Made by a program: the position numbers and the translations under genes. A stretch of 30,696 bases of DNA from Candidatus Mcinerneyibacteriota bacterium (lineage in GTDB: Bacteria > Macinerneyibacteriota > Macinerneyibacteria > Macinerneyibacteriales > DSCS01), in contig JAFGWL010000067.1 in assembly GCA_016937175.1 (NCBI GenBank), positions 1 through 30,696 of the forward strand. Direction: 5' to 3'. A model generated the notes under the pieces. It ran no database searches. It was not told the DNA's origin and was given only the letters and a program-made list of their open reading frames with translations. Below are positions 5,547 to 29,160 of this stretch, one piece after another (the first letter of the stretch is position 1; every line of letters starts with the position of its first letter).

Positions 5547-5574
5547 TTGATATCACTCCCAAAGAGAGTAAAAT
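5547..5574 (+). promoter_or_regulatory. Promoter of the kinase-GGDEF gene
   Basis: TTGATA (5547-5552), a 16-base spacer and TAAAAT (5569-5574), with the ATG at 5584. The predicted start near 5581 would leave a leader of only about three bases and no usual ribosome site. It lies back to back with the MATE promoter in an 80-base divergent region. Confidence 0.5.
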
Positions 5575-5583
5575 AGATGAAGC

Positions 5584-8500
5584 ATGAAGAAGATCAATGA
5601 CCGCTATGAGATCATCAAAGAGATAGGAGCCGGAGAATACGGCATCATTTATCAGGTCCGCGATAACGAAGACAAAGCGGTACCGGTCAAGGCTCTGAAA
5701 CTTTTTGACTCAGACAAACACGGTAAAGACCCCCTTCCCTTTTTCGAAGAGTATTGGTACACCCGCTCGGTGACAGCCACCTGCTCGGTCAAGGTCTTCG
5801 AATTCAACCGGGTCTATGCCATTGATGAAAGCCCTTTCCACGGAAATTACTATTACTACACCATGGAGTATGTAGATGGCCTAACCCTGGCCGACTATCT
5901 ATTTATCGACAAAGAAGAGAAGAAGGAGATTCTGGAGCGCATCGCCATCAAGGTCCGCTGGCTTCATGCCAACGGTTTCTGGCACGGGGACCTCTCCCCG
6001 GAGAACATCATCATCTCTTTTAACAAGGATATCGTTTTTATCGACTTTTTTCCCCACGGCCATATCCGGGAAGAAGAAGAAAACTTTAAGAGTCTTATGA
6101 ATGAATCCTTCGGTTTTTCCGTGGACAAGTTCTGGGACTCCGTTTCAGGCCAGAAGGTCTCATCTTCCCTCCTCAGGAGTATTGCCCGGCGCCACGGTTT
6201 CTCTCCGGCTCTTATCGAGCCTGCCCTGGAAAAACTACATCTTACCGTCAGGGACATGAAAAACAGAGACATCCCCCTGACGCTCTTCAACCTGGTCAAT
6301 TTTACTGAAGACTATTTCACTTTGGCCATGCAATCGGCTAAACCCCTTCTGGTCATGAACGGTTTTATCACCAAAGAGATCCTTGTCAACGAAGACCCCT
6401 ACTCCTTTATCAGGGAGCTCTATTTCAGCCTTCTCCATGATCCGCGCCTTAAAGAGATCTTTTCCTCGGAACCCTCATTAAAAGACAGCCTTAAAAGCCT
6501 TACTTACGAGTCCTTCTCCAACATCCATAAGACCTATGCCCGTTTCCTTATAGAGAGGATCCTGGAAGGCCTTCATGCTTCAGGAAAGACGGCCATAATC
6601 ATCAGGAATGTCCGAACGGCGGATCCCTACAGCAAAGAGATCATCCGGGATATTCTTCATGAGCATACCGGGAAAAACCTTGTTCTCTTTATCAACGACA
6701 ATATCGGGCGGGAGTCCTATTACAAAGCAGCAGGTCAGAACTGGCTTATCGAGGAGGATTTTACCAATCCGACCGGACCTGAATTCCGCTCTTTTTATTG
6801 CCGTATCCTGGATTCCTTCCTCATAAACAACCTGACCGGCCTCTCCTTTACCCACCTCTGCTCTATGAAACAGGTCGATCTCCTGGAAGCCATGCGTTTT
6901 CTTACTTACCTGGATCCCGGACGCCCTTATCCCGATATCAAAAACCTTATCGCTTCCTTCGACCCCAGGCGTGATAAGGCTCTCTTTTATGACTCTCTGC
7001 TGGGTGATCCAGATCTCCGTCTTTTCCTCTATGAGCTCTATTTTATGGACAACCCTTCCCGTACCGTTTTCCTCTCGGAACTGGCCGGGCCGAAATTTCA
7101 GCGCCTTTTTCAACAGCTGATCGTCGAAAGTGTCCTTCTTCCGGGAGCCGAGCAGACAGTCTATTTTGCAGACCCGGACCTTTTCACCCGTCTGGGAAAA
7201 GAGATCCGAGCACTGCCTGAGGAACAGCAGAAAAGACTTGCAGAAAAAGTCATGGCTCTGTATGAAAGGCATGAAGAGGACCTCTCTCCCCAGGAAAAGA
7301 TCGTCCTGTGTATCACCATCAGCCGGGCAGGATTTCATGACAAGGCCATGGAATATCTTTTCAGCCACTTTTTTGTACGGTCCGAAGCTACAGAATCACT
7401 GTTGAAGAGCAATCTCTACTGGTATATCGAAAAACTCTATGAGAAGATGAAAAAAGACCCGGAGGCTTTTTCTCCCAGGTCGCTTCAGATCCTTCATATC
7501 GCCTACCATGCTTTAGCTCCCGACGCCACTCCCGAGAAGACCATCAGCGCCCTGCAGAAGCTGGACAGATCTGTCTCTCTGGATGCCGATATCCGAATGG
7601 TCCTCTACACGGATATGGCCCGCAAGCTCTATGTCCTAAGCCGCACAGAGAAGATGAAGGGTGTCATCAAAATCATCAAAGAACTTATTCCCCGGGTCCC
7701 CTTTGACCTGGCCTACACCGCCTACAGAGCTGAGATCCAATACTACTATTCCATCCGCGACCTGGAGACCATGATCCGCCTCTGCCGTGAACTGGCCCTG
7801 AAGTTAAACAAGGTTTCTGCAGAGGTAAGTGAACACCGGGGCATGGACCTGATCAGCTACTACTCCCTCTACTACCGCCACCAGGGACAGATGAAAAAAC
7901 ACAAGATCCTTTTGGATATTTTTCTTACAAAGGCGCGCCGCCTCAATGACCCCCGCTACCTCTATATCGCCCATACCAATTACGGGATGCACTATTACCT
8001 CCTGGGAAACAGAGAACAGAGCCACCACCATTTTCAGCTTGCCGCCCGGCAGGCTGAAGCCATGCAGGATTTCTACTACCTCATGCAGGCTTACAACAAC
8101 CTGGCTGTCAATGAGCCTGACCCGGAAAAACTCGTTCAGGACCTCTATCAGGCTCTCAAATATACGGAATTCACAGAAGACAGTAAGAACAAGATCCTGA
8201 TCCTCTATAACCTCATCGACACCATTCCTCCCGAAGAAGGCTACAGACTCTATGAAAAGCATAAAGACTTCATCCTGGAGCAGAGCAGTGACGACGCCTT
8301 TATCGCCCTTTATCGCGGACTGCTCTATTTTTCACTTACCGATGTCCTTTTTACTTTGGGAAAAGAGGATGAACTCCTAAACCTGGCTTCCCTTATCACA
8401 GATACAGAAATCACCAATCCCTACGCCACAGATGCCCGGACCCTCCGGGAACTCCTTTTGAAAAAGATAAAAGTCATAACGGGAGAAAGATCAGATATCT

Positions 8501-9999
8501 TAAAGGATTTCCCTTCTCTTCTCAAACATGCCACCGGAGAGACCATCAATTCCTTTAAGAGCTTTCTCTTTGAGACAGCTGCCTGTATCCTTTCTCCAAA
8601 GGAGCTTCTGGAGGCTGCCTCTTCCCTGGCTGCCTGGCATGAGCAAAACGAGATGCGGCAGAGCATCGGTGATATCTTGGTATGGATACGCCTGGAGAGT
8701 GACCCGGTCCTCAGAAAAGATCCCCGGAAATGCGCCCGTTATATCCGTCTTTATTACCGTAAATCCTCCTACTCCTTTATCTGCGGTTCTGTCTCTCTCC
8801 ATCTGGCCCGGGCTCTGAAAAAGCTTGACGACCCCTCTTACCTCTGTGAATTATCAAGGACAGCAGAGATCTTCTCCCACGATTGCTCCCTCTATCACCG
8901 GGAAAACTCCCTGATATCGATTTTCCGGAAGGAATTCCCCGCAGAATTCGAAACCCTGGTCACCAAAGGAAAAGATCCCATGATCCGTGTTACAGATTTT
9001 TCTCCCCTGATCGCAGAATTGAAATCCCTCGCTGATAAAAATCTGGAGCAGCATGATTTTTTCACTTCTCTCCTCCCCCTCATGGCGCGTACCCTGCACT
9101 TTGACCGAGCCCTCTTTGTCCGTAACAGCTTCGGCCGCCTGGAAGAGTCCATGCATTTTGAAATGAGGCCCCAGGTCTTCTCTCCCCGGGCCAACCCGTC
9201 CTATGAAGAATATCTTCCCCGCCTTAAAGATACCCCCTTCTCCATGACAGTCAAAAACCATCCGGAAATCAAAAGAGTCCTCATCCTGCCCTTGATCGAC
9301 AGAAAGGTCTGGATGCGGGCACGGGAAGACAGCCGCTACAAGCGGTCCACATCCCTCACCCATATGAACTATATCGAAGCCTTTATCTACCTTGACCAGA
9401 ACCATGGCGCCCGGGTCAGATATAATCAGGATGCTCTCAAAATTCTCCTTCTCTTCCTTAATGAATACTGGCATAACCGTCTTTCAGAAGACAAATATAT
9501 GCGGGATTCTCTGACAAATCTCTATTTCCGGGAAGTCTTCCTGCGCAAACTCAGCGATCTTGTCTTCACAGGAGGAGAGCGCCAACCACTTCCTATCTCC
9601 CTGCTTATGATCGATGTGGATAATTATAAGGAAATCAATGATATTTTCGGGCACCAGAGAGGTGACACGGTCCTTCGGGACATCGCCGCTATCCTGGGGA
9701 AAGCCATACGCGGCTATGACCTGGCCGGGCGATACGGCGGTGATGAATTCATCCTGGCCCTTCCCAACACCACGCCCGCTTCAGGACGTCTCATCGCCAA
9801 CCGTATCCGAGACCGGATCGAAAAGGCTCAGATCATGGGGCTTATTCGGAAAATCACCGTAAGCATAGGCCTTTCCCACTATCCCACCGATTCCCGCCTT
9901 CTGGAAGAATTGATCCAGAAAGCCGACCAATGCCTTCTTCAGGCTAAAAAAATGGGGAAAAATACCGTGGTAACGACCCATAGCTCGCTGCGCAGCTGA
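5584..9999 (+). CDS. Giant sensor: atypical Ser/Thr kinase - degenerate STAND - TPR - GAF-like - GGDEF
   Basis: A 1471-residue cytoplasmic protein with no membrane segment. Residues 8-170 are a Hanks-type kinase: glycine loop IGAGEYGIIY (14-23), likely ATP Lys39, catalytic HGDLSPEN (134-141; Arg of HRD replaced by Gly, Lys replaced by Ser) and DFF (154-156) in place of DFG. Catalytic Asp136 and metal Asp154 remain, so activity is possible but reduced activity is equally plausible. Residues about 325-400 resemble the Walker B half of a STAND/AAA domain (IIIRNVRTADPYSKEIIRDIL), but the acidic residues are lost. Helical TPR-like repeats cover about 600-1000, and a GAF-like region about 1140-1300. 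The C-terminal diguanylate cyclase domain keeps GGDEF (1385-1389) and the RxxD product-inhibition site (1376-1379) five residues before it. It probably makes cyclic-di-GMP in response to an unknown signal. It is the only plus-strand gene. Confidence 0.85.
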   Translation: MKKINDRYEIIKEIGAGEYGIIYQVRDNEDKAVPVKALKLFDSDKHGKDPLPFFEEYWYTRSVTATCSVKVFEFNRVYAIDESPFHGNYYYYTMEYVDGLTLADYLFIDKEEKKEILERIAIKVRWLHANGFWHGDLSPENIIISFNKDIVFIDFFPHGHIREEEENFKSLMNESFGFSVDKFWDSVSGQKVSSSLLRSIARRHGFSPALIEPALEKLHLTVRDMKNRDIPLTLFNLVNFTEDYFTLAMQSAKPLLVMNGFITKEILVNEDPYSFIRELYFSLLHDPRLKEIFSSEPSLKDSLKSLTYESFSNIHKTYARFLIERILEGLHASGKTAIIIRNVRTADPYSKEIIRDILHEHTGKNLVLFINDNIGRESYYKAAGQNWLIEEDFTNPTGPEFRSFYCRILDSFLINNLTGLSFTHLCSMKQVDLLEAMRFLTYLDPGRPYPDIKNLIASFDPRRDKALFYDSLLGDPDLRLFLYELYFMDNPSRTVFLSELAGPKFQRLFQQLIVESVLLPGAEQTVYFADPDLFTRLGKEIRALPEEQQKRLAEKVMALYERHEEDLSPQEKIVLCITISRAGFHDKAMEYLFSHFFVRSEATESLLKSNLYWYIEKLYEKMKKDPEAFSPRSLQILHIAYHALAPDATPEKTISALQKLDRSVSLDADIRMVLYTDMARKLYVLSRTEKMKGVIKIIKELIPRVPFDLAYTAYRAEIQYYYSIRDLETMIRLCRELALKLNKVSAEVSEHRGMDLISYYSLYYRHQGQMKKHKILLDIFLTKARRLNDPRYLYIAHTNYGMHYYLLGNREQSHHHFQLAARQAEAMQDFYYLMQAYNNLAVNEPDPEKLVQDLYQALKYTEFTEDSKNKILILYNLIDTIPPEEGYRLYEKHKDFILEQSSDDAFIALYRGLLYFSLTDVLFTLGKEDELLNLASLITDTEITNPYATDARTLRELLLKKIKVITGERSDILKDFPSLLKHATGETINSFKSFLFETAACILSPKELLEAASSLAAWHEQNEMRQSIGDILVWIRLESDPVLRKDPRKCARYIRLYYRKSSYSFICGSVSLHLARALKKLDDPSYLCELSRTAEIFSHDCSLYHRENSLISIFRKEFPAEFETLVTKGKDPMIRVTDFSPLIAELKSLADKNLEQHDFFTSLLPLMARTLHFDRALFVRNSFGRLEESMHFEMRPQVFSPRANPSYEEYLPRLKDTPFSMTVKNHPEIKRVLILPLIDRKVWMRAREDSRYKRSTSLTHMNYIEAFIYLDQNHGARVRYNQDALKILLLFLNEYWHNRLSEDKYMRDSLTNLYFREVFLRKLSDLVFTGGERQPLPISLLMIDVDNYKEINDIFGHQRGDTVLRDIAAILGKAIRGYDLAGRYGGDEFILALPNTTPASGRLIANRIRDRIEKAQIMGLIRKITVSIGLSHYPTDSRLLEELIQKADQCLLQAKKMGKNTVVTTHSSLRS

Positions 10000-10021: not shown

Positions 10022-12238
10022 TTACTTTTGCAAAAGAGAGAGTCTGTAGAAGGCTTCCGGAGAAGATTGGGCCTGATACCAGGAGAGCAGCTCTTCCCGG
10101 GAGACCGTGGCTGATTGAAAGAGATCCTCCAGTAAAAACTGGATTTCCCAGAAAAAGGGGTCTTCCCTGTCCGCCCCCTTAAGAGAGTCCAGAAGGTGCT
10201 CCTTAGCGCCGGGTATCCCTTCCCGCCCTTCGATCTCCATCTTACGGAGGTCCATCTCTTTCCAGAGCTTTTCCGGAATCTTCTTTTTTTTAAATTGAAG
10301 CTCCAGTTCCCCGAAGGCCTCCCGGGCTTTTTCCGTATCGCCCTCCCGGAGGAAGGCATCGATGAGAACGGGAACATCCCATTGCCACTCCTGGACGCCC
10401 ATTTCCTGTTCGGTTCGGATGGATTGAGTCAGATAAAAAGCCGCCCTTTCTCCGTTTCCCTTCAAATGGAGGTAGACCCGTCCGAAGTTAGCCTGGCTTC
10501 GGGCCAGAAGCCTCTTTTCTCCCCACTCACGGAGCATCTTCTCCAGAGTGGCATAATAGAGGAGGGCACTCTTCTCGTCTTTCATCTTATAATAGTTCAG
10601 GGCCATGTATTCCTGGGCGATATAGATCCCCCGTCGGTAGCCGATCTCTCTGAAGATGCGTAAGGCCTTTTCGTAACAGACAAGAGAACGGCCCATTTGG
10701 CCCTGGTCTGCATAAACGATCCCGAGGTTTCCGTAAACGTTGCCCACGATCATTTTGACATCAGCGCGGAGGGCTCCGTAGAGAGCCTCCTCAAGGACCT
10801 CCACGGCCCGGGAATAATCTTTCGTATAGGTATGGAAAAGCCCGATATTGGCGTTCATCATCACTTCTTTCAACGGAAGACGTTTCTCCGCTGCAAGGTC
10901 TAACGCCTTCTTCAGGTACTCATAGGCCTTCTCCCATTCACTCTTGTTCTCACGGATAAAGCCCAGGATATTCAGCGCTTCGATATCCCTTTCTGGAATC
11001 CGGGGCAAGAGTGTGGATCCGAGAAGCCTGCTCGATTGCTCTTCAGCCTCTTCATAATCGGAAGCCATGTAGGCGCGGTAACAGAGCAGGCTCAGGATAT
11101 CATAATACTCCCTGGGCCACTTCCTGTCCCGGGCGATCCGGCAAAGTTCTTCCAGCCCGGAAGCCTCGGACCCGTCTCCTCCCTTGACAGAAAACAGGGT
11201 CTTATAATAACGAAGATGTGTCTTTTCCCTCTCCGGAAGAGACTCTGCAGAAAAAGAGGCGGCTATGGACTCTCCCTTCTCCCAGTACTGGACAGCATCA
11301 TAAAGGGGAAAGAGATCATCCAGATAGAGCCGTAGCCGGGACAGGCCTTCAGGAAGAAGCCCTGTCAGAGTCTCGTTTACATAAATCGCAGCGCTGATAT
11401 TCATACTTCCGGAAAGTCTTTTTTTCTTTTCTTCCAGAAAACGGATCTCGTCGTCACGACTCATAGAGGCTCGCTCCAGGACGTAACGGTCGACCCAGTC
11501 AAAATAACCTTTTTTTTCCTCCTCGACTGTGTGAAGGAGATGAAACTGCTCTTCTCTGCTTGTCTCCTTTCCCGGTTCCAGAAAGAGGAGGTAAGGGCCG
11601 TATTTCAACCCGGAAGCCGCCTGAGGCAGATCCCCGAATATCGCTTCTGGAAGAGACGCCCCGAAATAATCATAGAGATACGAGCCTGTGGAAACAGTTT
11701 CTGCCGCCTTCACTTCCGGCATATAGGTCAGATGTTCGAAATAGAGGGGCTCATGGGAAAAGATGACCATGGTCAACGGGATCTCAGTAGCATAAGTCGT
11801 AATAAAATAACGGGTCAGAGAGTCGAGACGGGCCCAGTCAAGGATGACCAGCAGACGTTTTCGTTCAAAGAGATACCGGAGTTGATCGAAGAGCAGCTCC
11901 CAGTCGCTCTTTTTCAGGACCCCGGGCCCTGTGACATAATAGGCTCCGGAAGAGGATTCGATTCCCAACTCTTCCCGGCAGAAACGAATGAACTCTTCCG
12001 CGTTCTCCCCTGAATCAAAATGCTTCCCCCACTCCTCCAGGCTGATATTCTCTTCATAGAGAGTGGCGATGATAAGCCGCTTCAGTGCAAGGAGAGGCCG
12101 GGATTGTGTCCCCCCGGATAAAAAGCAGGTCTCGTTTTCCACATCTCGCGCTTCCTGAAGGAAGGCGAGGATGACTGAAGGATGGATCGATTCAATAAGG
12201 ACAGGCTTCGGATCTTGAAAAAGACGATCTATGCTCAT
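10022..12238 (-). CDS. TPR protein with degenerate STAND/ATPase N-terminus
   Basis: A 738-residue soluble protein. Residues about 1-250 look like the remnant of a STAND-type ATPase. A strand-loop LLVILDWARLDSLTRYF (129-145) sits where Walker B would be, followed by a second strand (PLTMVIFSHEPL), but no Walker A is visible. Residues about 380-640 contain at least five TPR repeats (for example ALNILGFIRENKSEWEKAYEYLKKAL, with later repeats opening NANIGLF, YGNLGIVY and ANFGRVYL), a protein-interaction scaffold. No output domain is recognised. The gene converges on the kinase-GGDEF gene with 22 bases between stops, and both share the STAND-remnant plus TPR plan. It is probably monocistronic. 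No ribosome site precedes the ATG; a promoter -10 ends 6 bases upstream. A role as partner of the kinase protein is inference. Confidence 0.75.
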   Translation of the reverse strand: MSIDRLFQDPKPVLIESIHPSVILAFLQEARDVENETCFLSGGTQSRPLLALKRLIIATLYEENISLEEWGKHFDSGENAEEFIRFCREELGIESSSGAYYVTGPGVLKKSDWELLFDQLRYLFERKRLLVILDWARLDSLTRYFITTYATEIPLTMVIFSHEPLYFEHLTYMPEVKAAETVSTGSYLYDYFGASLPEAIFGDLPQAASGLKYGPYLLFLEPGKETSREEQFHLLHTVEEEKKGYFDWVDRYVLERASMSRDDEIRFLEEKKKRLSGSMNISAAIYVNETLTGLLPEGLSRLRLYLDDLFPLYDAVQYWEKGESIAASFSAESLPEREKTHLRYYKTLFSVKGGDGSEASGLEELCRIARDRKWPREYYDILSLLCYRAYMASDYEEAEEQSSRLLGSTLLPRIPERDIEALNILGFIRENKSEWEKAYEYLKKALDLAAEKRLPLKEVMMNANIGLFHTYTKDYSRAVEVLEEALYGALRADVKMIVGNVYGNLGIVYADQGQMGRSLVCYEKALRIFREIGYRRGIYIAQEYMALNYYKMKDEKSALLYYATLEKMLREWGEKRLLARSQANFGRVYLHLKGNGERAAFYLTQSIRTEQEMGVQEWQWDVPVLIDAFLREGDTEKAREAFGELELQFKKKKIPEKLWKEMDLRKMEIEGREGIPGAKEHLLDSLKGADREDPFFWEIQFLLEDLFQSATVSREELLSWYQAQSSPEAFYRLSLLQK

Positions 12239-25521: not shown

Positions 25522-26589
25522 TCACCTCCTTTTCAGTTCTTCTATCTCTTTTTTCATGGACTGATGGTTGATGGCGATGGCAGCCTGGGAAGCCAGGATC
25601 GCCAACAGCTCTTCATCTTTATCATTGAACTGATGGATCTCGTCACTGTCCACGGCGATGACGCCGATGACTTTCCGGTCGACGAGCAGGGGAGCCGCCA
25701 GCTCTGAGCGGACCTCTTCATTGGTCTTCACATACCGGGGGTCGTTACGCACATCATCCACCCTTTGTACTTTCCCGGTCTTAGCGGCCCATCCGGTGAT
25801 TCCCTCTCCCATATGAAGGTGGATCGACCGGATAAAATCCTCCCCGATCCCCCGGGCGCATCGGATATCAAGAGTCTGGGTCTCTTCGTTAAGAAGCATG
25901 AGAGCACCGGTACGTCCATCCACCAGGGAAAGCCCCTCTTCAAGGATCATGTTCAGCAAAGCGTCCAGGTCGTTCATGGAGTTCATCTCGTTGGCGATCT
26001 TGTAGACTGTCTCCAGCTTTGCTTCCTTATGGCGCATCCGCTCCATGATCCGGGCATTCTGGATGACAATGGAAAGCGTCCCCACAAACTGTTCCAGATA
26101 GGTTATATCCCCTTCTCCGAAGGGCGTTTTGTCACGTTTGGTATCCAGGACGAGGATCCCCAGGGAGTCTTTGCGGAACATCAGCGGAGCAAACAGGAGA
26201 TAGGTGGATCCCACTTTTCTGAAAAGATCCGGGATACGGCTGTCTCCCGAGACATCGGTAATGATATAATCTCCGTTTTCCAAAAGGTCTTTTACAAAAA
26301 AATTGGCCACTGAGAGTTCTGTCCCGTTCTTGACATCCATCCCCAGCATGCCCGTACAGGAGAAGAGCCGAAGCTTCGTCTTGGGCTCATTGAAGAGAAA
26401 GACGAAGGAGCGCTCCACATGAAGGAGGCTGATAAGAGAGCTGTTGATGTAGTGAACGGTATCGTTAAAACTTGAGAAAGAGTTCACCAGGGCGTTGGTA
26501 ATGCTGTTTAGAAAATAGATCACATGCTTATCCTGGACTTTGTCGATAAACTGTCTTTTCCGTTCAAAGATCCGCCTGATCAGCCGCAT
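25522..26589 (-). CDS. Tandem GAF-domain sensor protein
   Basis: A 355-residue cytoplasmic protein with a basic N-terminus (MRLIRRIFERKR) and two GAF domains. The first is at about 40-178 (RSFVFLFNE to LGILVLDTKRDKTPFGEGD). The second is at about 200-345 (ALMLLNEETQTLDIRCARG, GEGITGWAAKTGKVQRVDDVRND, APLLVDRKVIGVIAVDSDEIHQF). It ends in a short charged helix with no kinase, phosphatase, GGDEF or HTH output. It may bind a small ligand and act through a partner. The ATG at 26589 has AAGGAGG 6 bases upstream; this start overlaps the preceding gene by 26 bases. Confidence 0.88.
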   Translation of the reverse strand: MRLIRRIFERKRQFIDKVQDKHVIYFLNSITNALVNSFSSFNDTVHYINSSLISLLHVERSFVFLFNEPKTKLRLFSCTGMLGMDVKNGTELSVANFFVKDLLENGDYIITDVSGDSRIPDLFRKVGSTYLLFAPLMFRKDSLGILVLDTKRDKTPFGEGDITYLEQFVGTLSIVIQNARIMERMRHKEAKLETVYKIANEMNSMNDLDALLNMILEEGLSLVDGRTGALMLLNEETQTLDIRCARGIGEDFIRSIHLHMGEGITGWAAKTGKVQRVDDVRNDPRYVKTNEEVRSELAAPLLVDRKVIGVIAVDSDEIHQFNDKDEELLAILASQAAIAINHQSMKKEIEELKRR

Positions 26590-27397
26590 AGGAAACCTCC
26601 TTTTTTGGATTATAGACATCCAGTACATAATGACTGTGAAAAACAAAACCGTTTTCACTCCTCAATGCCGATACCTTGTCGGCGAAATAGTCGATATGAT
26701 CCTGGATTGCCACCCCCTGTGACGACAGGTATTGAAAAAGAAAGAGAAGGAACCCGCTCAATCCCGGGAACTTGACCTCGTTCATCCACGGTTCACGGCG
26801 GACATGTTCAAAATAAGTTTCCGGTGAGTACTTTTTTTTAGCTTTCGGTTTCCGCCCCCGTGTCTCCCGGGGTTGTCGAAAGGGGGTCAAAAGCTCTTTG
26901 ACCTCAAGCAGGTTCTTCTCTCCTTCCGCAAAATGGAGTACTTGTCCCCCGGCCTTGATCCGTCTGGAGAGGGTTTTAGCAACAGCTTCGTTCTCCCGGA
27001 AATCCTCATCAAAGGCGATCACCAGGGAAAAAGGGCCGTATTGAGCCGGAATATTCTCCCCGGTACTGAAAAGGGTGATCTTCTGGGCCGGGACAGAGAG
27101 GCGATATTCCCTTGTGAAAAGTTCCAGCTCCTTGTAGGCGGAATGAAGGTAGGTATAGTGGTGCACCGGGTAGCGGAAAATAATATCGCCGGCGAAGTGA
27201 TAGGGGATCTTGTAAAGAAGAATACGGTCTCCGACTCTTTTTTGCGTCAGGAGATGTCTGATCCTGCTCTGATAGAAGACTTTGAAGAAATCTTCGACAG
27301 AAAGAGGCACAGGGCGGCTCTCTCCGGCCCTGACATTCAGTCCGTAGTCGTTGATGATCTCAAAGATTTCGTTTCTGACTTCCTGTCTATCTCTCAT
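26564..27397 (-). CDS. Unrecognised protein with AT-hook-like basic segment
   Basis: A 277-residue protein of no family I can name. The N-terminal half is alpha/beta (VPLSVEDFFKVFYQSRIRHLL, KIPYHFAGDIIFRYPVHHYTY). A central strand-helix part (FSLVIAFDEDFRENEAVAKTL) follows. A strongly basic linker at 174-190 contains RGRKPKAKKK, which resembles an AT-hook core. The C-terminal helical region is rich in aromatic residues. No signal peptide or membrane span is seen. It overlaps the cyclophilin gene by 11 bases and the GAF gene by 26 bases, so it is firmly embedded in the operon. The basic segment suggests nucleic-acid or ribosome contact, which is inference. Confidence 0.75.
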   Translation of the reverse strand: MRDRQEVRNEIFEIINDYGLNVRAGESRPVPLSVEDFFKVFYQSRIRHLLTQKRVGDRILLYKIPYHFAGDIIFRYPVHHYTYLHSAYKELELFTREYRLSVPAQKITLFSTGENIPAQYGPFSLVIAFDEDFRENEAVAKTLSRRIKAGGQVLHFAEGEKNLLEVKELLTPFRQPRETRGRKPKAKKKYSPETYFEHVRREPWMNEVKFPGLSGFLLFLFQYLSSQGVAIQDHIDYFADKVSALRSENGFVFHSHYVLDVYNPKKEVSYAADQADL

Positions 27398-27983
27398 TTT
27401 CCTCTTTTTCTATGAGAAGCGCTTTTTCCAGAACCACAGGAGTCGAGGGCCAATGTGTGAAAGGCCCCAGGGCCGTTACAGGCATCTGTGCTATCTTTTC
27501 GATTGTATCCCATCCGGAGACCACCTTTCCGAAGACGGTATAGGACCGGCCCAGGCTCCCTTCGCCCTGATAGTTGAGATGTGTATTAGACTGGAGATTG
27601 ATAAAAAATTGAGAGGTCGCCGAATCGGCATCCTCTCCCACCCGGGCCATGGCCAGAGTCCCCTTCACATTGTAGAGGCCGTTGTCGGCTTCGCTCACGA
27701 CTGTTCCCAGGGTCTCTATGGCTGTGACTGTCCCCTCTTCGATTGTATAGCCTCCGCCCTGGATGACAAACCCCTTCACTACACGGTGAAAGACAGTCCC
27801 GTCAAAGCGGCCTTCCCGGACGTAACGCAGGAAGTTGGCACAGGTCTGCGGGGCATCGTCGCTATAGAGTTTGATGACGATATCTCCCTCACTGGTCTCA
27901 AGGCGGACCCGGGGCTGAGCCAGGAGGCCGGGAGCTGCAAAGACAAGGCTCAGCAGTATCATGATAAGGACTTTACTTCTCAC
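27387..27983 (-). CDS. Secreted cyclophilin-type peptidyl-prolyl isomerase
   Basis: A 198-residue protein with an N-terminal signal peptide (about residues 1-22, ending LLAQ), followed by a complete cyclophilin domain. Catalytic FHRVVKGFVIQGG lies at 65-77 (Arg67), with SQFFINL around residue 125 and VFGKVVSGWDTIEKI near the C-terminus. It accelerates proline isomerisation during folding in the periplasm, like E. coli PpiA. Start GTG 27983 is preceded by AGGAGG and overlaps the ATPase gene by 11 bases. Confidence 0.93.
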   Translation of the reverse strand: MRSKVLIMILLSLVFAAPGLLAQPRVRLETSEGDIVIKLYSDDAPQTCANFLRYVREGRFDGTVFHRVVKGFVIQGGGYTIEEGTVTAIETLGTVVSEADNGLYNVKGTLAMARVGEDADSATSQFFINLQSNTHLNYQGEGSLGRSYTVFGKVVSGWDTIEKIAQMPVTALGPFTHWPSTPVVLEKALLIEKEENER

Positions 27984-29160
27984 GCTTTCCTCCTTCTGTT
28001 ATGGATCCCCCGTGAATATAGGGGAGCCTGTAGACTTTCTGCTTATCGATATAATCAGGCACCAGCAGCCGTTTAGACGCCAGGTCGGCCATGCGCATGG
28101 AGAGGCTTACCGTGTCAAGGGCCGTCGCCTCTTTCAGGCGGTTGTCCCCTGCGATGACATAGGGGTCTTCCGAAGCCCGCCTCAGGATAGCCAGGGATTT
28201 TTCATCCAGGGCAAGGGCGTCCGACATGAGGGACAGGATCTCTCCGGCGGAGATCCGTCCACTTTCCTGGTCGAGGGCGGCCCTGAGAGAGCGGGTCAGA
28301 AGAAACATCAGGGTCCTGGGATTCCCTTTGGCCAGTCCGAATAGAAGACGCAGGGCATCTTCAGCGAACATCTCCTCCGGGCGCCCGTCGAGCCTGCTGT
28401 AGAGAAGCTCTCTGAACTCCTCTTCCGTAAAGGCCGGAAGGGGGATAATATCATTGACCATGGCCAGCAGGCTCTTTTTCGTCTCGGCATTGAGAAGTCC
28501 CTGCATGTCTTCATAAAACTCCCGGGAAAGGGAGAAGGCCCATACGCCTTTCCCGGCATTCAATACTTCGTAATTTTCCAGAAAAAAGGCCAACAGCCGC
28601 TCCGGGACGGTTCCTTTGGGAACATCGTCTCCCAGAGCTTTATCCAGGTCGTCCACCAGGAAGACGACCTTTTTCCCCAGGGCTTCGATGAGCTTTACAG
28701 AGGCCTTCCGCATCTCTTCCAGAGAAAAAAGGCGGTGGCGCCAGAGTTCCTGGCGTTTCAGCAGTGTCCCCAGAAGAGAAAGCATCTGTTCCTCTTCAAG
28801 GGAAGAGAGGGTCTCTCCTTTGAAGAGAAACCGGATCAAAGTCTCGACTTCCTGGGTATAGGCCAGTTTTTCCCTTATCTCCTCTTCGCCCCCCGGAATG
28901 AGCTCGGTGAGGCCGTAGAGGATCTTTTTGTAAAAATAGGCGGTATCCACTACCGGCATGGAGATGCGCACGACGGGATACTTCGCTTTCATCTCATGGG
29001 AAATGGCATTGAGAAATGTCGTCTTCCCGACCCCGGGATTCCCCGAGACAGCACAGTTCAAGCCGTTTTCAATAAGAGTGAGAATATGCCCCTTCTCTTT
29101 ACGACGGCCCACAAAAAGAGCCATCTCATGTTCCTGAAGGGGCGTTGTCCTGGTATTCAC
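27973..29160 (-). CDS. Orc/STAND-like AAA ATPase
   Basis: A 395-residue ATPase. Walker A is GNPGVGKTT (residues 40-48), preceded by the typical FVGRRKEKGHI lead helix. Walker B is VVFLVDDLDKA (165-175). A lid-like region (FTEEEFRELLYSRL, then LAKGNPRTLMFLL) and a C-terminal winged-helix-like segment (about 320-395) follow. This order is that of Cdc6/Orc1-like and MSP-type STAND ATPases, which act as switches or DNA-binding adaptors. No effector domain is fused. GTG 29160 overlaps the ispG stop (GTGA) with GGAGG upstream; an internal ATG at codon 13 is the alternative start. The partner and role are unknown. Confidence 0.85.
   Translation of the reverse strand: MNTRTTPLQEHEMALFVGRRKEKGHILTLIENGLNCAVSGNPGVGKTTFLNAISHEMKAKYPVVRISMPVVDTAYFYKKILYGLTELIPGGEEEIREKLAYTQEVETLIRFLFKGETLSSLEEEQMLSLLGTLLKRQELWRHRLFSLEEMRKASVKLIEALGKKVVFLVDDLDKALGDDVPKGTVPERLLAFFLENYEVLNAGKGVWAFSLSREFYEDMQGLLNAETKKSLLAMVNDIIPLPAFTEEEFRELLYSRLDGRPEEMFAEDALRLLFGLAKGNPRTLMFLLTRSLRAALDQESGRISAGEILSLMSDALALDEKSLAILRRASEDPYVIAGDNRLKEATALDTVSLSMRMADLASKRLLVPDYIDKQKVYRLPYIHGGSITEGGKREK

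Follow-up and report, generated by a model that had tools for sequence, protein, structure and literature searches.

A predicted diguanylate cyclase headed by a minimal Hanks-type kinase fold in a Candidatus Mcinerneyibacteriota bacterium

The window analysed here, a stretch of 30,696 nucleotides from a Candidatus Mcinerneyibacteriota bacterium (assembly GCA_016937175.1, contig JAFGWL010000067.1), carries on its forward strand a gene whose 1471-residue product joins, from N- to C-terminus, a Hanks-type kinase fold, a STAND-derived region, TPR-like helices, a GAF-like domain and a GGDEF domain with an RxxD motif. With a probability of about 0.5, the sequence is best read as that of a diguanylate cyclase controlled, within one soluble chain, by an allosteric kinase module that still bears an ATP site. 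The frame runs uninterrupted from ATG to stop, and its orthologue in the nearest relative genome, SpSt-1200 (deposited as a Bacillota metagenome-assembled genome, MAG), has the same length, 55% identity and the same gene order; with equal length and synteny, this is no chance frame. The domain layout had been read by eye in a preliminary description of the window, and frame, orthologue and profiles now agree with it. The source genome (1.88 Mb, 98.7% complete) belongs to a phylum represented by three genomes in the collection used, with Candidatus Mcinerneyibacterium aminivorans as a relative from the same order.

The proposed mechanism runs from the head of the chain to its tail. The kinase fold keeps its ATP-site residues and probably binds Mg-ATP; having neither an activation segment nor an APE/P+1 platform for a substrate, it is unlikely to play the role of an ordinary protein kinase. 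Together with the P-loop-less STAND region and the TPR-like helices it would most likely form a switch gated by a nucleotide or a partner, from which, we infer, a conformational change would be relayed by the GAF-like domain and a connecting helix to a GGDEF dimer, where cyclic di-GMP (c-di-GMP) would be made under product feedback at RxxD. A soluble, regulated cyclase is supported by the absence of any transmembrane-like stretch in the protein (highest 19-residue hydropathy mean 1.43) and by a modelled GAF-helix-GGDEF arrangement that matches the sensor-linked cyclases 5llw and 4zmu. An allosteric or sensing role for the kinase had been suggested before on the strength of two unusual motifs, HGD and DFF; the role is retained as the best reading, but its grounds are now the missing activation segment, APE and P-loop, together with the loss of catalytic residues in two orthologues whose GGDEF is kept.

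The Pfam Pkinase profile matches residues 8-155 (E 1.3e-13) over profile positions 1-142 of 263 only, leaving the protein without a full C-lobe. Within the matched part the glycine loop, Lys39, Glu56, Asp136, Asn141 and Asp154 are all retained, giving an HxD...N catalytic loop and the Asp of DFx. The structure prediction proposed earlier for this region was made on a 600-residue model, in which residues 1-191 superpose on residues 4-278 of PknB (Z 16.9, 183 residues, root-mean-square deviation 2.9) and whose listed fold matches were kinases only; in the model the kinase fold itself is firm. What the fold has lost is equally plain: neither an activation segment nor an APE motif was found in this protein or in any member of its fusion family examined. 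Instead a short loop follows Asp154 and leads directly into a helix, and the distance from DFx to that next helix is much shorter than in wider relatives.

The motifs HGD (residues 134-136) and DFF (154-156) are present as first read, and the kinase is indeed divergent, but they do not make it a dead one, and that interpretation was rejected. Among 15 wider relatives from other phyla, the catalytic Asp is preceded in 12 by something other than Arg (HGD, HYD, HFD, HLD, HCD or HHD), HGD being frequent in otherwise complete kinases; DFG stands in 13 (DLG and DFD in the other two) and an APE-like motif in 14. The Asp of DFx is kept here, and replacement of the DFG glycine has a published precedent in ILK, which reads DVK (PMC4718504). 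A pseudokinase, by definition, lacks the beta-3 Lys, the HRD Asp or the DFG Asp (PMC4718504), and here Lys39, Asp136 and Asp154 are all in place, such losses being confined to two orthologues. Homologues with restored motifs and ordinary kinase activity had been named as telling against a sensory role; the relatives go half of that way, with intact DFG and APE motifs.

Across the eight full-length orthologues the beta-3 Lys is invariant, whereas the alpha-C Glu, the catalytic Asp and Asn141 are each kept in seven and the DFG-position Asp in six; all five residues persist together in 6/8. The exceptions are the orthologue of Desulfuromonas sp. SDB (E56D, D136E giving HGE, and D154N) and the Candidatus Mcinerneyibacterium orthologue C7 (N141S, D154K). 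GGDEF is intact in 8/8, including these two, in which the catalytic residues are dispensable. Between sister species the kinase core is 69-77% identical, against 77% for GGDEF and 44-45% for the post-kinase and TPR regions; conservation on a par with GGDEF, and far above that of the helical middle, places the kinase fold under selection or constraint.

Several points weigh against an allosteric head. Model confidence is low at the end of the kinase C-lobe (197-212) and at 387-459, the proposed link between kinase and GGDEF is drawn solely from their fusion, and the five catalytic residues are kept, leaving room for real phosphotransfer such as autophosphorylation. On the simplest reading an ATP- or partner-gated allosteric head ranks first, an active minimal kinase second and a pure scaffold third. 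The second of these, unlikely but a serious contender, would have ATP hydrolysis, or phosphorylation of the chain itself, of GAF/GGDEF or of a partner docked on the TPR-like helices, switch the cyclase, in the manner of RIO, Bud32 and ABC1/ADCK, with their related HxD loops and reduced C-lobes. It draws on the retention of all five residues in this protein, its sister and four other orthologues, and on the Pfam profiles of ABC1, RIO1, Kdo, APH and Bud32, which match best at the catalytic loop. It sits poorly with the persistence of D136E and D154N/K orthologues beside an intact GGDEF, with the paralogue pair C48 (own genome) and C31 (Mcinerneyibacterium), in which no catalytic loop is recognisable, and with the lack of any activation segment or platform for a peptide. 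Moreover, the folds that it matches are Hanks kinases; RIO, Bud32 and ABC1 structures, to which the domain may nonetheless be related, were not among the matches listed.

Between kinase and GGDEF, a Pfam scan of the protein finds nothing over cut-off except an overlapping ABC1 kinase-like model, and the STAND and GAF regions in particular have no Pfam match; in the domain search advised earlier, the matches came from family profiles. For the region described as decayed STAND, the whole-family profile aligns with AAA_16 of the wider relatives (hhalign, Prob 94.5, E 7.7e-8, 220 columns), the clade profile alone gives E 0.007 against 0.4-0.7 for unrelated regions of the same protein, and the paralogues C46/C6 alone, with a typical C-terminal G-x-P segment, give E 6.5e-10, each hhalign E-value, here and for GAF below, being that of a single comparison. 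The decay is real: the P-loop is missing from every family member examined. In this protein its place is taken by NLVNFTEDY, whose Asn239 does not vary within the clade, and that of Walker B by IIIRN, so that neither Walker motif of a STAND NTPase is present. The sequence GLHASGKT (330-337) was considered as Walker A and rejected; it lies in a helix ahead of the Walker-B strand, only the sister shares it, and the resemblance is coincidence. TPR repeats, also claimed earlier, exceed the curated cut-off at the matching place in three of the five paralogues, but in the protein itself the TPR_2 match (796-823) is sub-threshold (E 0.21). The GAF-like region is borne out by the family profile (Prob 88, E 2.9e-6 over 135 columns against GAF of wider relatives; controls 0.04-0.7), while the clade alone is not significant (E 0.047).

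A head without a P-loop could also be a pure scaffold, in which the kinase and STAND folds survive as structural adaptors that dimerise the chain or bind a partner, and neither ATP binding nor catalysis plays a part. Such a view fits the two orthologues and the paralogue group whose catalytic residues are gone, but an invariant beta-3 Lys and a kinase core conserved like GGDEF between sister species speak for more than a scaffold, which we regard as doubtful.

The output end bears all the sequence hallmarks of an active cyclase, as was noted at the outset. GGDEF is matched by Pfam at E 1.2e-38 (132.8 bits against a cut-off of 23.8), and its model matches solved GGDEF domains at Z about 25. The metal, substrate and I-site residues D1344, N1352, D1361, R1376 and D1379 are present, the last two framing an RGYD motif five residues ahead of GGDEF; all eight full-length orthologues retain the GGDEF/GGEEF motif and RxxD together with the metal and substrate residues. 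The position of Asp1361, invariant in 17 family members, is Ser in the cGAMP-making Hypr enzymes. The genome encodes five HD_5 (HD-GYP-type) and two MshEN proteins, by which c-di-GMP could be degraded and sensed. That GGDEF is instead inactive or makes another dinucleotide, the protein acting by binding c-di-GMP at RxxD, is highly improbable: no PilZ or EAL domain was detected in the genome, which would favour it, but the complete residue set, invariant Asp1361 and the HD-GYP and MshEN proteins argue otherwise.

The protein is one of a family. Five more long chains of the same layout (C46, C10, C6a, C6b and C48) are encoded in the genome, most with an extra stretch after GGDEF, and in a GGDEF tree, small and thinly sampled outside the family (nine outside domains), all 19 fusion sequences form one group (support 0.95), with the clade described here at 0.84 and the longer paralogues at 0.86. 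Orthologues of the clade occur in 3/3 genomes of the phylum and in 4/4 of another small phylum, to which Desulfuromonas sp. SDB and a WOR-3 MAG belong; a sample of 290 genomes from across the bacteria gave full-length matches in these lineages only. The Pfam kinase model matches only three proteins in the genome, all members of this family, so that kinase fold and c-di-GMP appear to be tied together unusually exclusively, although such a scan may miss divergent kinases, three of the fusion paralogues themselves going undetected. In the C48 group (L031, L039, L096), which has also lost the catalytic loop, a P-loop relic reads GESGSLKE where GEVGVGKS stands in the comparison, and MGEEF/MGDEF replaces GGEEF; each of the three enzyme domains may have degenerated in this group.

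In most of the wider relatives the kinase is complete and AAA_16 intact. Six were scanned with Pfam, and five of these (L080, L081, L083, L085, L086) are kinase-AAA_16-TPR-GAF-sigma-54 activators, most with HTH_8. The shared order of parts points to a common input chassis, which the present family couples to GGDEF. Kinase-headed sigma-54 activators in one chain, mostly with non-RD kinases, are themselves an apparently widespread type.

Synteny with SpSt-1200 extends over an outer membrane protein (OMP) barrel, fructose-bisphosphate (FBP) aldolase, DUF2225, MATE, the kinase-GGDEF gene, a TPR protein and an ABC transporter; the neighbours are mainly housekeeping genes and none suggests an operon partner. 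A promoter-like site at 5547-5574 (+; 10/12 match) ends 10 bases 5' of the start codon and would leave almost no leader, and the number of such sites is in line with chance (6 found, 4.3 expected). The convergent neighbour at 10022-12238 (-) encodes a protein of 738 residues whose C-terminal half bears TPR repeats and whose N-terminal half looks, by eye, like a STAND domain without a P-loop; its orthologue adjoins the kinase-GGDEF orthologue in SpSt-1200 too. Further along, at 25522-29160 (-), a GAF-domain protein, an unassigned protein, a peptidyl-prolyl isomerase and an AAA_16-type ATPase are clustered. An Rfam scan of the window returned no matches. Features of the gene are collected in Table 1.

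Table 1. Features of the kinase-GGDEF gene, in window coordinates; residue numbers refer to the 1471-residue product.
Feature	Positions	Strand	Basis
Whole gene, 1471 aa	5584..9999	+	ORF (open reading frame), translation, SpSt-1200 synteny
Minimal Hanks-type kinase domain, residues 1-191; glycine loop 15-22, Lys39, Glu56	5584..6156	+	Pfam Pkinase; PknB superposition
Catalytic loop HGDLSPEN, 134-141	5983..6006	+	Sequence; clade table
DFF at DFG position, 154-156; Asp kept, Gly replaced	6043..6051	+	Clade table
Expected place of activation segment/APE; short loop and helix 161-175 instead	6052..6108	+	Model secondary structure; relatives compared
STAND/AAA_16-derived alpha/beta region without P-loop, 231-385; Asn239 invariant at P-loop place	6274..6738	+	Profile comparison, model, clade table
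Helical TPR-like region, about 561-1060	7264..8763	+	Sub-threshold TPR_2; paralogue TPRs over cut-off
GAF-like domain, about 1140-1304	9001..9495	+	Family profile vs GAF; fold model
GAF-GGDEF connecting helix, 1282-1306	9427..9501	+	Model
GGDEF diguanylate cyclase domain, 1307-1460	9502..9963	+	Pfam; fold match
RGYD inhibitory I-site, 1376-1379	9709..9720	+	Sequence; clade table
GGDEF motif, 1385-1389	9736..9750	+	Sequence; clade table

If the allosteric reading holds, a Hanks kinase fold has here been reduced from a signalling enzyme to the input module of a second-messenger cyclase, with the stages kept side by side: complete kinase and ATPase in the outgroups, stripped but residue-complete kinases here, and residue-losing kinases in two orthologues. 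The fusion type itself is not new. A survey in 2005 described a Clostridium thermocellum protein of 1826 aa with a kinase, six TPR and GGDEF, and suggested that Ser/Thr kinases and c-di-GMP are linked (PMC1262709); our literature search found no direct report of a Ser/Thr kinase-diguanylate cyclase fusion beyond it. That protein shares the N-terminal Ser/Thr kinase, TPR, C-terminal GGDEF and single soluble-looking chain, a likeness of domain layout. As kinase-TPR-GGDEF fusions have been known since then, the present protein is a variant of a known design, in which the kinase is without an activation segment and the STAND region without a P-loop.

Other known systems resemble it in part. The kinase-AAA_16-TPR-GAF-sigma-54 proteins of several phyla have the same order of input parts and non-RD loops (HGD, HYD, HLD), but in them the kinase is complete, DFG and activation segment included, Walker A is mostly intact, and the output is sigma-54/HTH_8. 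In the cyanobacterial dual kinases (Hanks kinase, GAF and histidine kinase; PMC1262709) a Hanks kinase and GAF likewise feed a second signalling enzyme in one chain, although that output is a histidine kinase and the kinases there are reported to be catalytic domains. Receptor guanylyl cyclases, with their kinase homology domain (cited in PMC4718504), offer a functional analogy in which an ATP-binding kinase fold controls a nucleotide cyclase of the same chain; they are eukaryotic membrane receptors with a class III cyclase that makes cGMP, and common descent of the arrangement is not implied. By that analogy one might speculate, as a rather unlikely extension, that the family is a bacterial counterpart of these receptors, in which the Hanks kinases detected in the lineage, as heads free of an activation segment, would sense cellular ATP or an adenine ligand and directly set c-di-GMP.

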